A stretch of DNA of 64,000 nt, taken from assembly GCF_037094495.1 (NCBI RefSeq), contig NZ_CP146612.1:620001-684000 (forward strand). Direction: 5' to 3'. Within the stretch, counting starts at the first letter, position 1. Each line of letters starts with the position of its first letter. Shown here one piece after another: positions 1,272 to 11,655 of the stretch. The notes under the pieces were generated by a model that worked only from the letters and a program-made list of their open reading frames with translations, made no database searches and was not told the origin of the DNA. The DNA is from Dehalogenimonas sp. W (GTDB taxonomy: Bacteria; Chloroflexota; Dehalococcoidia; Dehalococcoidales; Dehalococcoidaceae). Position numbers and translations under genes: made by a program.

Positions 1272-1381
1272 GTGCAGGTATTCAAACCCTACCTAACCAT
1301 CTGTAAGCTGATAGCTGACGGCTGTTTGCTGAAAGCTCCCCTTTGCAATTTGTCGGCGGGTCGGTTGTCCACTGACCCGCT

Positions 1382-2275
1382 TCAACTTTCCGTCGCCTGA
1401 AGAAATACACTCTCCAGCGTTGACTTGGCACGCGTCATCCCTCTGGGATATATACCCTCCGCCGCCAGACAAACTCCAATAGCTTCCGCCTGGCCTTCAT
1501 GCGCTGTCACGATGACTAGATCCCCCTCGATACGGGAATCGAAACCGGCGTCAAAAAGTATCGCCACCGTTTTCACGGGATTGGCGACTGATAACTCCAT
1601 TTCACTGCGGCCGTGGAGGAACAGCAGTTCTTCCATCGCACCCTGCCTGACCACCTTCCCTTTCTTGAGGATAGCCAGGTGACTGCATACCTGCTCTACC
1701 TCCGCCAACAGATGGCTGGCCAGAAACACGGTTTTGCCTTGCTCAGCCAATCTGATTATCAACCCGCGGATATCGGCAATACCTTCCGGATCCATTCCGT
1801 TGGTCGGTTCATCAAAGATATAGAATTCCGGGTCGCCCAACATGGCCAGGGCAATCGCCAGCCGCTGTTTCATACCCATGGAATATGTGTGGAATTTGGT
1901 TTTAGCCCGGTCGGCCAGCGATACCGTTTCCAGTACCTCCGCCAGCCGTTTTCTACCCACAGGCTGATGCAGCCCGCCGAAGATAAGCAGGTTGTCCAGA
2001 CCTGACAGATCGGGGTAAAAGCCCCCGGTGTCCATCACCGTGCCCACCCGCATCAGTGCTTCCGGAGAAAGCTCCTGGCCGAACATATATACCTTGCCGG
2101 CGGTCGGGCGGATCAGACTCAGCATCATGGCGATGGTGGTTGTTTTGCCACTGCCGTTAGGCCCCAGGAAGCCGAATACCTGGCCGCGGCTGATTTCCAT
2201 ATTGAGACTGTCAACCGCGGCAATGTCACCGAAGCGTTTGGTCAGGTTTTCGGTTTTGACGATACAATCACTCAT
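1382..2275 (-). CDS. ABC transporter ATP-binding protein (ABC-2 exporter type)
   Basis: Cytoplasmic ATPase of an ABC-2 type exporter, partner of the permease gene just upstream (2280-3323). It has Walker A GPNGSGKTT near residues 38-46, a signature variant YSMGMKQR and Walker B YIFDEPTNGMD, and a C-terminal extension typical of the bacitracin/Nat/drug-export family. The ATG at 2275 lies 4 bases after the permease stop; a GTG at 2278 is an alternative start. The pair is divergent from a two-component system whose probable operator sits in the shared promoter region, suggesting stress- or antibiotic-induced export. The substrate cannot be read from the sequence. Confidence 0.9.
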   Translation of the reverse strand: MSDCIVKTENLTKRFGDIAAVDSLNMEISRGQVFGFLGPNGSGKTTTIAMMLSLIRPTAGKVYMFGQELSPEALMRVGTVMDTGGFYPDLSGLDNLLIFGGLHQPVGRKRLAEVLETVSLADRAKTKFHTYSMGMKQRLAIALAMLGDPEFYIFDEPTNGMDPEGIADIRGLIIRLAEQGKTVFLASHLLAEVEQVCSHLAILKKGKVVRQGAMEELLFLHGRSEMELSVANPVKTVAILFDAGFDSRIEGDLVIVTAHEGQAEAIGVCLAAEGIYPRGMTRAKSTLESVFLQATES

Positions 2276-2279
2276 CACG

Positions 2280-3323
2280 TTACTCTTTCAATTCTTTCCG
2301 CTGGAAGATACCATAAACAAGGGCGGTGAACAGACTGATATAGGCCAGTACCAGGGCAACGGCCGGACCAACCCCCCGAAAACACTCCACAGTTTGGGCG
2401 GAACCACCCACGATAACGACATTTTGCCCGGATGCGCCGCCGATGAATTCCTGCCCCGGCCACATATAATGCATGATACTTCCAAAGTTATATCCCATGG
2501 TTGCCGGGGAGATGGTGGCGAAAAGTCCCTGACCACAGGGGGTGACTGAAAAGAAACTGGTGGAAACAAGGCCGATGACAATGCCGACCATCACCGCCGA
2601 ACCGGGGGAGGCCAGGAATATACCTAAAAATCCCCCTAAAGCCATGTATGCCACAGCAATAAGACCAAAGACCCAAAATACGTTCCAGACGATGCCCAAT
2701 GACAGTGTCGCCGGGTGAATCGCTCCGAACCCATCATAAAACAGCCGTATCGTAATAAGCAGGGTGACTGTGGTAATGACTGTGAAAACAACCGCCAATG
2801 CCGCAGAAACAAGTATCTTGGCCGTCATTATGCGGTGCCTTCTGACACCCCGGCTGACCATCACACGGTAAGACCCGCTGTTGAACTCACCGGCGACAAG
2901 GTTGACTGCCATCACCAGGCTCAACACAGCCAGTATCCCGGCGCCCTGGCGGGCCCCTTGGGACAGAAGGCTGGTCATTTCGTACCGCCCTCCTTCGGCT
3001 GTCAGAGCGTCTATCTTCGCCTGATAATGTTCCCGGATAAACCGTTTATAGACTTCGGCGTTTTCCGGTATCAGCTTACCCTGGGAATCAACCAGGGGAT
3101 AATCCTCAGGGTCATAACTCTCCGGCCACTCACTGAGAATAACCGGGGACCCACGGTCTACTGCCGCAATATCAAATTCGGTCAGGCGCTCAAAACTGTC
3201 GGCCATGACTTTGTACTCGTTGCCCGGAACCGTCGCAAACAGAGCAACGAATACAATCATAACCAACAGAATGATGATAACCGTTTTGTTTCTGGTCAGC
3301 TTGAAATATTCGGTGGCGATCAT
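2280..3323 (-). CDS. ABC-2 type transporter permease
   Basis: Membrane subunit (347 residues) partnering the ATPase that follows it. It has an N-terminal membrane segment after MIATEYFKLTRNK, an extracytoplasmic loop of about 120 residues, then about five more hydrophobic segments, as in ABC-2 permeases. An ATG at 3398 is in frame, but it lies upstream of the probable -10 box (3381-3386), so transcripts from that promoter would not include it; the ATG at 3323 also matches the family N-terminus and has AAAGGGCG just upstream. The product probably exports a peptide, lipid or antibiotic; substrate unknown. Confidence 0.88.
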   Translation of the reverse strand: MIATEYFKLTRNKTVIIILLVMIVFVALFATVPGNEYKVMADSFERLTEFDIAAVDRGSPVILSEWPESYDPEDYPLVDSQGKLIPENAEVYKRFIREHYQAKIDALTAEGGRYEMTSLLSQGARQGAGILAVLSLVMAVNLVAGEFNSGSYRVMVSRGVRRHRIMTAKILVSAALAVVFTVITTVTLLITIRLFYDGFGAIHPATLSLGIVWNVFWVFGLIAVAYMALGGFLGIFLASPGSAVMVGIVIGLVSTSFFSVTPCGQGLFATISPATMGYNFGSIMHYMWPGQEFIGGASGQNVVIVGGSAQTVECFRGVGPAVALVLAYISLFTALVYGIFQRKELKE

Positions 3324-3380
3324 GCGCCCTTTTGGATTTTCATTGTTCAAATTCCATTGACCCCGGCTATTTTTCCGGCC

Positions 3381-3413
3381 ATTGTACCACCCCGACATTA
3401 ACCTAACCTTAAC
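3381..3413 (-). promoter_or_regulatory. Response-regulator operator and promoter of the ABC exporter operon
   Basis: Read on the minus strand: GTTAAGGTTAGGTTAATGT (3413-3395), 8 bases, then a -10 TACAAT (3386-3381). GTTAA recurs with an 11-base period, the direct-repeat layout bound by OmpR/PhoB-family regulators, placed where a -35 box would be. The same module with the same spacing occurs at 5589-5621. It also lies 43 bases upstream of the response regulator gene, so autoregulation is possible. Binding is inferred. Confidence 0.72.
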
Positions 3414-3456
3414 GGGTTTTACTTTTTTTCAGCCGTCAACTACCATCTAAGCTGTC

Positions 3457-4134
3457 ATGCGCTTATTACTAATTGAGGACGATAAGAGCCTGGGCTGGAC
3501 AATCAAGTCCAGTCTGGACAAACAGCACGGCTATGTTATGGACTGGGTAACCAATGGCCTTGAAGGCGTTGAGATGGCCGAGGCTTACGAATATGACCTC
3601 ATCCTGCTGGACATCATGCTGCCGGGGCAGGATGGCTTTGCCGCCTGCCGGTCTATCCGTAACACCGGCAATAAAACCCCCATCCTGATGCTGACCGCCC
3701 GCTCCCGGGAGGATGACCGGGTGCGCGGGCTGGACCTGGGCGCAGATGACTATCTGGTGAAGCCGTTCAGCTACCCGGAACTTTTCGCCCGCATCCGGGC
3801 GCTCATCCGCCGTGCTGGTAATCAATATGATTCGGTTATCACCGCCGGCCTTCTGGTCATGGATACCGCCGCCCGGAAGGTGGTATACGATGGGAAACAG
3901 ATTGAACTGACCGCCAGGGAATATGCCGTACTGGAATACCTGTCCCTCAACAAGGGCAATGTGGTAACCCGGGAAATGCTGGAACACCAGCTCTGGGACT
4001 GTGAATCCGGTGCTTTCTCCAACGTCATTGAAGTCATGATCTGCCACATCCGCCGGAAATTATGCCCCTCCGGTGAGAGGGAAACGGTGGTAAAAACGGT
4101 CAAAGGACTGGGCTATGTTATCCGCGATTCGTAA
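3457..4134 (+). CDS. OmpR/PhoB-family DNA-binding response regulator
   Basis: 225-residue two-domain response regulator. The receiver domain has the acidic pocket (EDD at 7-9), phospho-acceptor D52 in LLDIMLPG and K102 in VKPFSYPEL; the C-terminal winged helix includes the ELTAREYAVLEYL and VIEVMICHIRRKL segments. It overlaps the histidine kinase gene by 20 bases, so the two are co-transcribed. The flanking operators at 3395-3413 and 5589-5607 have 11-base direct repeats suited to this family, so probable targets are the divergent ABC exporter and the 5631-6683 gene. Confidence 0.94.
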   Translation: MRLLLIEDDKSLGWTIKSSLDKQHGYVMDWVTNGLEGVEMAEAYEYDLILLDIMLPGQDGFAACRSIRNTGNKTPILMLTARSREDDRVRGLDLGADDYLVKPFSYPELFARIRALIRRAGNQYDSVITAGLLVMDTAARKVVYDGKQIELTAREYAVLEYLSLNKGNVVTREMLEHQLWDCESGAFSNVIEVMICHIRRKLCPSGERETVVKTVKGLGYVIRDS

Positions 4135-5551
4135 GCGATTCAGCAGTCTCACCTGGCGCTTTCTGGGAGTGTATCTGCTGTCGCTGGTGGTCATACTGGC
4201 AACCTTCGTCTGGCTCATCACCGCCATCAACACCCAGCAGGCATACAACGCCATCAACAGGACTCTGGAAGTTGGGCCGGGCTACCTTGACGGCTTCAGC
4301 GCAGATAATACCCTGGCACCGCCGAATTCCTATTATACGGGGGAGAGGGTAATTACCGAATTCGTTCCTTTTGGTGACCGATCCGCCAACGGTGTTTCAG
4401 TAGACGGAGTCCTGTTTAAATACTTAATGACAGCCCCGGACGTAATGGCAACCACCACCACAAATTCTGATCAAATCTCTCTATACCGCTCCGACTTCCC
4501 CAGAACCTTTGAACTTGGTTTTACCAACATGAACGCCTACCGTATCTTTTACTACTACCCGGTACCCGGTTTTGACAACGTGGTACTGGTGGCCTCAGTG
4601 GACGGCCAGACGGTCCAGACGCTGGAAGCCGCTGACCGCACCCTCACCCAGGCTGTTTATCTCCTACCGGTTCTTTTGATTCTGGCCGCTGTCTTCGGAC
4701 AGTTCGTCGCCCGGAAAGCGGTCGCCCCGGTGCTGACCATCGCCCGGGCCACGGAATCCATGAGTGAAAAGAACCTGTCCGAAAGGGTCTGGCGCGTTTC
4801 GTCATCGGACGAAATTGGCCGCCTGGCGCATTCCTTCAACCGCATGGCTGACCGGCTGGAACAGGCCTTCACCGCCCAAAAACTCTTCATATCCGATGCC
4901 GCCCACGAACTCCGGACACCGCTGGCTTCCATGAAAACCGCCGTCACCTACGCCCTCAGCCGTCCAGACATCGCACCGGAACACCAGCAGCTGCTTATCG
5001 GGTTGTCAACACGAGTAGAAACGATGGAACACCTGGTCAATGAGTTGCTCCTCCAGGCCAGAGTAGATGAGAACCGGACTTTAGCCGCGGGTATTCCGGT
5101 AAGTGTCGCCGTCATCGTTACCGAAGCCGCCGATATCTTCCAGCCGCTGTTTGAAGAAAACGGCATCACATTTACCCTGGACACCCCGGACAAGGCCTCG
5201 ACAGTCAGGGGCGACGGCAAGCAACTGTTCCGGCTGATTTCCAACCTGCTGGACAACGCCGCCAAAAACACCCCCGCCGGCAGAGAGGTGACATTGGAAC
5301 TGACGGCGGAAGAAGGGGAAGCCGTCATCAGGGTGCGGGATACCGGTCGCGGTATCGCCCCGGAACATCTGAACCGAATATTTGACCGTTTCTATAAGGT
5401 TTCGGCCGAGCGTTCACCGGAATCCGGCTTCGGCCTGGGCCTATCCATCTGCCGCGGCATCGCCGCCCGTCATGGCGGCAGCATTGCAGTGGAGAGCGAA
5501 CCAGGCAGGGGCACCGTCTTCACCGTCCGCTTGCCGCTGGCCAAAGGATAA
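4115..5551 (+). CDS. Membrane sensor histidine kinase
   Basis: 478-residue sensor kinase paired with the preceding response regulator. It has a membrane segment at about 17-40, an extracytoplasmic sensor region to about 183, a second membrane segment at about 186-208, a HAMP domain, a HisKA domain with phospho-acceptor H264 in DAAHELRTP, and a HATPase domain with N-box (NLLDNAAKNTP), G1 (DTGRGIAP) and G2 (GFGLGLSI) motifs. The sensor region resembles no ligand-binding domain I recognise. The linked exporter suggests a cell-envelope or toxic-compound signal. Confidence 0.93.
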   Translation: MLSAIRKRFSSLTWRFLGVYLLSLVVILATFVWLITAINTQQAYNAINRTLEVGPGYLDGFSADNTLAPPNSYYTGERVITEFVPFGDRSANGVSVDGVLFKYLMTAPDVMATTTTNSDQISLYRSDFPRTFELGFTNMNAYRIFYYYPVPGFDNVVLVASVDGQTVQTLEAADRTLTQAVYLLPVLLILAAVFGQFVARKAVAPVLTIARATESMSEKNLSERVWRVSSSDEIGRLAHSFNRMADRLEQAFTAQKLFISDAAHELRTPLASMKTAVTYALSRPDIAPEHQQLLIGLSTRVETMEHLVNELLLQARVDENRTLAAGIPVSVAVIVTEAADIFQPLFEENGITFTLDTPDKASTVRGDGKQLFRLISNLLDNAAKNTPAGREVTLELTAEEGEAVIRVRDTGRGIAPEHLNRIFDRFYKVSAERSPESGFGLGLSICRGIAARHGGSIAVESEPGRGTVFTVRLPLAKG

Positions 5552-5588
5552 CTCGCGTCTTTTGTTTCCCTTTTAATTCTCCAGTTCC

Positions 5589-5621
5589 GTTAATGTTAGG
5601 TTAATGTTGCCGTGGTAGAAT
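5589..5621 (+). promoter_or_regulatory. Response-regulator operator and promoter of the propeller-like gene
   Basis: GTTAATGTTAGGTTAATGT (5589-5607), 8 bases, then -10 TAGAAT (5616-5621). It matches the minus-strand module at 3413-3381 in 18 of 19 operator bases, with identical spacing to the -10. The -10 ends 9 bases before the ATG at 5631, so the mRNA would have almost no leader. There is no -35 consensus, as expected of an activator-dependent promoter. Confidence 0.72.
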
Positions 5622-5630
5622 GCTTTGCAA

Positions 5631-6683
5631 ATGAATAAATTGCTTAAATGGCCGCTCATCTTCCTCGGTTCCCTGGCCGTGATATTTGTTGTCGCCAACG
5701 TGGTAAGCGTCATTGAATCCCGCTTCTGGGTCAAAGCCAAAGACTGCAACGCCACGGCATTTGAAATCGCCGGTCCAGCCTCGCCGGTGTGGCAGAACTC
5801 AAGGGGCTGGGCGTTCGACGGCGATCATCTCTGGATCATGGCCGCTAACGCCAGCCAGGTCATCAAGGTAAACCCCGCCACCGGGGCTACCGCGGGCGTC
5901 GTTATGCTGCCATCGAAACCCGTTGACCTCTCTTTCGACGGTACGCACATCTGGGTCTCCAGCGAGCGTTACTACTATGTTATAGATATCATAAGCAGTG
6001 TTTTTGTCGAGCTACCGGCGGCCGATGAAAAGGGCCGGCAGCTGAAGTCCGCTGTTGGGAATCTTATTTTCGATGGCCAGTATTTTTGGAGCGGCACCTT
6101 CGGCGTTTCCCGCATCTGCCGTGATACTGGTGAATTCCTCGCATGGAATATATCAGGGGGAGCGGGAACGGTCGGGATTTATGATGGACAGTTCTTGTGG
6201 GGAATTTCTCAGTCAGGGCTACTCCAAGTCGACCCTTCGGCCGGGTCCGTGGTTGCGGAGCACGCGCTGGATATCGGCGGTCCGTTGTACTATGACGGCG
6301 ACGCTATCTGGGGTATCGTCGTTGAAGGAGGTGTCCCGAATGAATACGGCGGCATCCATTACACCGACGACAACTTCACCACCTTTCTGGTCAAGACTAA
6401 TATTTCCCAACCCGCCTTTCCGTATATCTCGGCTAAATATGAATTGGGTGCCGTACGGATAAAAGACATTACGTTCGCCGGAGGTCTGACCTGGCTAATC
6501 TCTGACACTGGCAAAGTGATAACCTTCGACCCGCTGTCCAGGCAAATAACCGAATCCCGACAGGTGTTCAACCGCATGATGGGTGATTTCTCTCTGGTCA
6601 CTGATGGAATTATAGTGTTCGCCCTCGATTATTCCAGCGGTACCTTAGTCAGCCTGGCGGATTGGCCGGCTTTCGTGCGGTAG
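5631..6683 (+). CDS. Membrane-anchored putative beta-propeller protein, function unknown
   Basis: 350-residue protein with an N-terminal hydrophobic segment (about residues 6-25) acting as signal or anchor, so the rest is probably extracytoplasmic. The body repeats a [FY]DGxxhW motif (FDGDHLW, FDGTHIW, FDGQYFW, YDGQFLW, YDGDAIW) at roughly 40-50 residue intervals, which fits blades of a beta-propeller. No catalytic motif was recognised. A TTG at 5625 is an alternative start. Its promoter module matches that of the ABC exporter, so it probably belongs to the regulon of the neighbouring two-component system. Confidence 0.75.
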   Translation: MNKLLKWPLIFLGSLAVIFVVANVVSVIESRFWVKAKDCNATAFEIAGPASPVWQNSRGWAFDGDHLWIMAANASQVIKVNPATGATAGVVMLPSKPVDLSFDGTHIWVSSERYYYVIDIISSVFVELPAADEKGRQLKSAVGNLIFDGQYFWSGTFGVSRICRDTGEFLAWNISGGAGTVGIYDGQFLWGISQSGLLQVDPSAGSVVAEHALDIGGPLYYDGDAIWGIVVEGGVPNEYGGIHYTDDNFTTFLVKTNISQPAFPYISAKYELGAVRIKDITFAGGLTWLISDTGKVITFDPLSRQITESRQVFNRMMGDFSLVTDGIIVFALDYSSGTLVSLADWPAFVR

Positions 6684-11265: not shown

Positions 11266-11341
11266 AGGAGTGTAGCTCAGTTGGTAGAGCAGTGGTCTCC
11301 AAAACCACCGGTCGAGGGTTCGAGTCCTTCCGCTCCTGCCA
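11266..11341 (+). tRNA. trnW: tRNA-Trp (CCA anticodon)
   Basis: Complete cloverleaf: acceptor AGGAGTG/CGCTCCT with one G-T pair, anticodon loop CTCCAAA within GTGGT/ACCAC, T arm with GGTTCGAGTCC, encoded CCA at 11339-11341. First of four co-oriented tRNAs. Confidence 0.96.
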
Positions 11342-11344
11342 GTG

Positions 11345-11431
11345 GCCGAGATGGTGGAATGGTAGACACGCTAGCTTGAGGGGCTAGTGAGTGATGAGCT
11401 CGTGGGAGTTCAAATCTCCCTCTCGGCACCA
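11345..11431 (+). tRNA. trnL: tRNA-Leu (GAG anticodon)
   Basis: Class II tRNA with long variable arm: acceptor GCCGAGA/TCTCGGC, anticodon stem CTAGC/GCTAG with loop TTGAGGG (anticodon GAG), encoded CCA. It lies three bases after tRNA-Trp. Confidence 0.96.
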
Positions 11432-11458
11432 TTTTGTGTTAAAATTGCGTTTAAATAT

Positions 11459-11533
11459 GCGGAAGTAGTTCAGTGGTAGAACGCCTCCTTGCCAAGGAGG
11501 AGGTCGCGAGTTCGAGCCTCGTCTTCCGCTCCA
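11459..11533 (+). tRNA. trnG: tRNA-Gly (GCC anticodon)
   Basis: Acceptor GCGGAAG/CTTCCGC, anticodon loop TTGCCAA between CTCC and GGAG stem bases, T arm GAGTTCGAGCCTC, encoded CCA at 11531-11533. Confidence 0.96.
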
Positions 11534-11580
11534 TTAAAGACACCGCGGACTTTCCCCCGAAAGTCCGCTTCAATAACGCC

Positions 11581-11655
11581 GGCGACGTAGCCAAGTGGCA
11601 AGGCGGGGGTCTGCAAAACCCCTATTCACCGGTTCGAATCCGGTCGTCGCCTCCA
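11581..11655 (+). tRNA. trnC: tRNA-Cys (GCA anticodon)
   Basis: Acceptor GGCGACG/CGTCGCC, anticodon stem GGGGT/ACCCC with loop CTGCAAA (anticodon GCA), T arm CCGGTTCGAATCCGG, encoded CCA at 11653-11655. Last of the cluster. Confidence 0.96.

Follow-up and report, generated by a model that had tools for sequence, protein, structure and literature searches.

The genome of the anaerobic bacterium Dehalogenimonas sp. W carries a two-component system whose genes lie between two nearly identical sequences, each placed just before a possible promoter, and this arrangement raises the question of whether the system reads the sequences that flank it. The locus was analysed within a stretch of 64,000 nucleotides, hereafter "the window" (contig NZ_CP146612.1, positions 620,001 to 684,000), to which coordinates refer unless stated otherwise. 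The regulator gene (3457..4134, plus strand) encodes a receiver (Response_reg, 6.4e-28) and a winged-helix domain (Trans_reg_C, 1.5e-21), both with Pfam scores above cut-off, as expected of an OmpR/PhoB-family response regulator; 1kgs and the BasR/PmrA chains 4s04 and 8jo2 are among its closest solved relatives in the PDB. It overlaps by 20 nt the gene of a membrane sensor histidine kinase (4115..5551, plus strand; HAMP, HisKA and HATPase_c), the structure model of which (pLDDT 65, pTM 0.41) is too weak for naming a sensor fold. On the left, a leftward operon encodes an ABC-2 exporter permease (2280..3323, minus strand; ABC2_membrane_2, 1.4e-15) and, as its second gene, a DrrA-like exporter ATPase (1382..2278, minus strand; ABC_tran, 1.2e-26), for which the best NCBIfam models are drrA and galliderm_ABC, neither reaching its cut-off. 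On the right, the gene at 5631..6683 (plus strand) encodes a membrane-anchored protein modelled by AlphaFold2 (pTM 0.71) as one N-terminal helix followed by repeated strands; the top Foldseek matches are propellers (the designed Tako8, BamB and YVTN, E about 1e-9), and the product adopts a beta-propeller fold according to this model, which was built on 3 sequences and settles the fold level rather than the blade number. The locus is flanked by tsaD and an M16 peptidase gene. Elsewhere in the window, four tRNA genes are clustered on the plus strand (11266-11652), and a short AGCTGATAGCTGACGGCTG-like string, possibly a dispersed repeat, occurs in two intergenic regions of the genome (window 1290-1340 and segment L142 near 7850).

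Reading the window directly, box 1 is the 19-mer GTTAAGGTTAGGTTAATGT on the minus strand (3413-3395), followed by an 8-nt spacer, CGGGGTGG, and the hexamer TACAAT (3386-3381), while box 2 is the 19-mer GTTAATGTTAGGTTAATGT on the plus strand (5589-5607), followed by the 8-nt spacer TGCCGTGG (5608-5615) and TAGAAT (5616-5621). Between the 19-mers, the single difference is at position 6 (G/T). The positions, the one-base difference, the 8-base gaps, the two -10 hexamers and the placement of the modules on either side of the regulator and kinase genes all agree with a preliminary description of this DNA. Written as half-sites, box 1 is GTTAAG-N5-GTTAAT and box 2 is GTTAAT-N5-GTTAAT, both followed by GT; in each, two 6-bp half-sites share one direction and are 11 bp apart, which is the direct-repeat arrangement of OmpR/PhoB-family promoters, and 10 nt separate the second half-site from the -10. 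In addition, TGG lies immediately 5′ of the -10 at both modules, giving extended -10 elements TGG-TACAAT on the minus strand (3381..3389, with the TGn at 3389-3387) and TGG-TAGAAT on the plus strand (5613..5621). A sigma-70 scan of 3300-5700 returned 0 promoters, and a -35 could not be recognised on the exporter and propeller sides, which is to be expected if a bound regulator replaces the -35. Box 1 probably serves the exporter promoter as an activator site.

The modules had also been said to fix the starts of both downstream genes, and this held on one side only. The propeller ATG at 5631 is fixed provided that its -10 is correctly assigned; it lies 9 nt after that -10, so the propeller mRNA is probably leaderless. 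For the exporter, the modules exclude the ATG at 3398 of the permease reading frame, which falls in the box 1 sequence, ahead of the predicted transcription start, and the gene would begin at TTG 3350 or, more likely, at ATG 3323 (MIATEYFKL). The regulator genes of two related systems, paralog B and G005_47k, likewise look leaderless.

Two 19-mers one base apart could stem from a DNA segment that was duplicated recently and has no regulatory meaning. We give this explanation hardly any credence, since the flanks and spacers are unlike (CGGGGTGG versus TGCCGTGG) and since across the order the box, the gap and the -10 are retained while the other bases drift. All genome-wide statements here rest on pattern searches. 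Allowing up to 3 mismatches, the 19-mer matched twice within the window against 0.01 expected from shuffles, and in the whole genome of 1,772,240 bases it matched the window pair only, although the reversed control also gave 2 matches; moreover, the pattern was derived from the two sites themselves. Independent evidence comes from a looser pattern, GTTMA-N6-GTTMA followed at a fixed distance by TGn-TANANT with one mismatch permitted, which found 9 sites in the genome itself (0 in the reversed control) and 32 matches in 156 genomes of the order (1 with the reversed pattern). As the TGn was read off the sites of this genome, the 23 matches in other genomes are the independent test, and TGn-TANANT is kept at modules other than the window pair both in this genome and in the order. 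A further site of this genome, found with GTTMA-N6-GTTMA and a -10 at the right spacing, without the TGn, is GTTCATCTCCCGTTCATGTTGGGGTGGTATAAT. In 60 relatives, matches to the exact 19-mer (up to 3 mismatches) were mostly scattered and about as frequent as those of the reversed control, indicating that the 19-mer is specific to this genome and that conservation, as judged by these searches, is limited to the layout.

No further GTTAA-type module with a -10 was found anywhere in the genome by these searches. The only two other GTTAAK-N5-GTTAAK sites of the genome were rejected as modules: that at 707696 is part of a TTAAC array upstream of mgsA and has its -10 on the opposite strand, and that at 877286 lies inside an open reading frame and has no -10. 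The small regulon foreseen in the preliminary description would thus comprise this locus only.

The nine sites of the genome fall into four clusters, none lying more than 8.2 kb from either the window regulator or one of the three paralogs that most resemble it, namely B (257000), C (717288) and D (1359726), which hold ranks 2 to 4 out of 29 matches. The chance that three random clusters outside the window would all fall within 10 kb of B, C and D is about 3e-5. In locus C, a paralogous cassette, the regulator and kinase genes are joined by those of a permease (35%), an anchored propeller protein (29%) and a DrrA-like ATPase. The same kinds of genes recur next to modules elsewhere, namely ABC-2 permeases with ATPases (56% identity at the locus in G001, a genome of the same genus), propellers and DUF6612 lipoproteins, and the lipoprotein genes near B and D are likely to be further targets. 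The regulator of the window groups with G075_C77, G005_550k, G044_C8, B_own and G005_47k; a regulator search of genome contigs gave generic OmpR-family genes (36-46% identity), which were set aside. Proximity has its limits, as some modules (G005:1666146, G005:1720439, G144 and G145) have no close regulator alongside. Paralog D has GTTCAT boxes beside it but a different box, of the TGTCA type, upstream of its own gene, so the nearest regulator need not be the owner. This latter box, CTGTCATAATTCTGTCAG, resembles a Pho box. Near ftsZ, two tandem modules about 111 bp apart were observed (L200 6775-6919, L235 1550-1693 and L236 5514-5657); they precede an operon, which in L236 includes a lipoprotein gene and ABC exporter genes, and the owner regulator could not be assigned in these genomes.

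In the related genome G001, the boxes and the local genes were lost jointly. There, the alignment covers tsaD up to its 3′ end and resumes about 17 bases further on, where the propeller gene is reduced to its last 68 bp; the exporter, the regulator, the kinase and both boxes are missing along with the rest of the propeller gene, and the scar, with the end of tsaD fused to these 68 bp, lies at G001:C1:1378600-1378710 (L264 8600-8710). The remnant of the propeller gene shows that a single deletion in G001 removed genes and boxes together, and that they were not gained in the window genome. No close copy of the window regulator was found in G001, where the best match reaches 42%. Along with the paralog modules and the recurrence across the order, this joint loss supports the earlier proposal that an OmpR/PhoB-type layout, belonging with the adjacent two-component system, controls expression of the exporter and the propeller protein.

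These observations bear on whether the boxes are read by another OmpR/PhoB-family regulator, such as paralog C or the PhoB/YycF-like protein encoded at G000:C1:710797, while the local system merely shares the locus. An array of four TTAA repeats in 11-bp steps stands 10 nt before TATACT at G000:C1:707669-707712 (L268 around 1474-1517), upstream of the methylglyoxal synthase gene mgsA, near pstS and about 3 kb from the PhoB/YycF-like regulator; it is likely a Pho-type array and can serve as an internal control for promoter geometry. The PhoB/YycF-like regulator has these phased TTAAC repeats, with the same 10-nt gap as in the window modules, and boxes scattered over a genome can belong to one regulator, as is suggested by the GTTCAT boxes near paralog D. 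Yet the array, read toward its gene, has TTAACA where the window has TTAATG, GTTAA modules with a -10 are confined to the window locus, the paralogous regulators have boxes just upstream of their own genes, and G001 lost regulator and boxes together. We therefore consider reading by a foreign regulator quite unlikely, and reading by the local one remains the preferred interpretation.

A third promoter, that of the regulator and kinase genes, appears to share box 1. On the plus strand, 4 nt past box 1, lies a -35-like TTTACT (3418..3423), and 17 nt further a -10-like TACCAT (3441..3446), 10 nt ahead of the regulator ATG at 3457. Both hexamers are weak, and their assignment rests on a layout (box, 4 nt, -35, 17 nt, -10, 6-10 nt, ATG) common to the aligned upstream regions of the window regulator, B_own, G005_47k and G044_C8, the three relatives having TTTACA or TTGTCA as -35 and TATAGT/TATCAT as -10. 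Paralog B, for example, has CTGAA-N6-CTGAAT-ATTG-TTTACA-N17-TATAGT ahead of its regulator gene, and the window has TTAAC-N6-TTAAC-GGGT-TTTACT-N17-TACCAT. As this layout is shared by four regulator upstream regions, box 1 probably serves the exporter and the regulator-kinase promoters at once. Similar phased repeats stand upstream of the regulators of the C group, with as many as four copies in G001 and G008; in segments L198 and L203, four TGA(A/C) repeats in 11-bp steps were seen directly upstream of regulator genes.

With respect to the regulator gene, box 1 is inverted and lies right against the -35, from where control of either sign could be exerted. The boxes could hence be repressor sites, or box 1 could repress on the regulator side with activation elsewhere, making the circuit negative or mixed. 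We hold this to be unlikely, since on the exporter and propeller sides no -35 is present and the box takes its place ahead of an extended -10, as in promoters activated by CiaR (PMC3091779).

Taken together, we think it very probable that the locus forms a two-component response cassette complete in itself, in which the regulator would bind and activate through both boxes. The kinase would sense a signal, probably related to the envelope, and phosphorylate the regulator, which as a head-to-tail dimer would bind the GTTAAK-N5-GTTAAT boxes in the place of the -35, 10 nt before the extended -10. Thus bound, it would recruit RNA polymerase to the ABC exporter operon leftward from box 1 and to the anchored propeller gene rightward from box 2, and as box 1 abuts the -35 of the regulator-kinase operon, a single box would couple exporter expression to autoregulation. 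What we infer from these patterns is that the local regulator binds the boxes, that it activates rather than represses, where transcription starts, and that the cassette acts in envelope stress or in the export of toxic compounds. The extended -10, the place of box 1 at the regulator-kinase promoter and the G001 deletion were absent from the preliminary description.

How would paralogous systems with the same promoter layout be kept apart? All 4 half-sites of the window read GTTAA, which is unique among the grouped relatives, whose boxes are mainly GTTCA; GGTCA and TGTCA occur as well, and the G005 regulator at 1120620 has GGTCAT boxes alongside. A GGTCAT-N5-GGTCAT version of the module was also observed around another regulator-kinase pair (L229 10550 and 14795, G005:C1; L195 9089). 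The recognition helix of the window regulator is SNVIEVMICHIRRKL, and at the position of PmrA Asn196 and PhoB Arg201 (the latter equivalence being from our own helix alignment) it has His, whereas Arg or Lys is found in 16 of 16 aligned relatives, the out-of-frame row of G002 being excluded. PmrA Asn196 contacts bases (PMC4660055) and PhoB Arg201 a guanine (PMC3973317). The box versions suggest that specificity has diverged among the paralogs. Perhaps, the paralogous exporter-propeller cassettes of this genome share one promoter chassis and are insulated by their dialects (GTTAA, GTTCA and TGTCA, with GGTCA in a relative), the window lineage having moved from GTTCA to GTTAA together with the change to His; we put this forward tentatively, as a conjecture that may well prove wrong. 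The link between helix and dialect is weakened by CiaR, which has Lys at this position and TTAAG boxes, so that the helix position alone does not decide the box sequence, and also by GTTAAG boxes in G145, to which no owner could be assigned.

The fixed layout allows the likely targets of several two-component systems to be listed genome by genome, and it offers a testable cis-regulatory code for a bacterial group with little experimental regulation data. Close paralogs with differing boxes and small helix differences form a natural series for DNA specificity in the OmpR family after duplication, and the recurrence of exporter-propeller cassettes as paralogs points to a response, probably concerned with the envelope, that is as yet uncharacterised.

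In the open-access literature, we found no description of this module for Dehalococcoidales. Two-component genes linked to reductive dehalogenase (rdh) genes in Dehalogenimonas adjoin their presumed target operon (PMC13390414); the window system shares this adjacency, but its neighbours encode an exporter and a propeller protein instead of reductive dehalogenases, and the passages of that paper that were covered mention no such operator. NCBIfam models do not place the window regulator in a named system, as it scores 191 against a cut-off of 330 for the PmrA equivalog, 170.6 against 296.2 for the PhoB equivalog, 210.1 against 250 for RppA, and 207.3 against 279.2 for the heavy-metal model CzcR/SilR/CopR. 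PhoB, of the same protein family, also uses an 11-bp direct repeat, with TGTCA in place of the TTAAT of the window half-site. PmrA of the enterobacterial PmrAB (BasRS) binds head to tail to half-sites CTTAAT and CCTAAG 5 bp apart (PMC3973317, PMC4660055), a spacing equal to that of the window; however, at helix positions 195/196 the window regulator has Cys-His and PmrA has His-Asn, and the gene content is also unlike that of PmrAB. The CiaRH system of streptococci has the same 11-bp direct repeat (NTTAAG-N5-TTTAAG) and the same 10 nt to the -10, its activated promoters reading TTTAAG-N5-TTTAAG and then 10 nt to TATAAT (PMC3091779), and the CiaR helix VVEVYVSKVRKKL resembles VIEVMICHIRRKL of the window regulator. 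Both window modules have the 10-nt distance and lack a separate -35 as in CiaR promoters, whereas the final G that is invariant in the CiaR half-site TTTAAG is replaced by T in 3 of the 4 window half-sites. CiaRH moreover belongs to another phylum and has many small-RNA targets, while the window has two boxes only, with half-sites beginning with G, for an exporter and a propeller protein. Judged by its sequence, the layout is of a type known from PmrA and CiaR, and the modules are an additional member, in Dehalococcoidales, of the OmpR/PhoB-family direct-repeat promoters.
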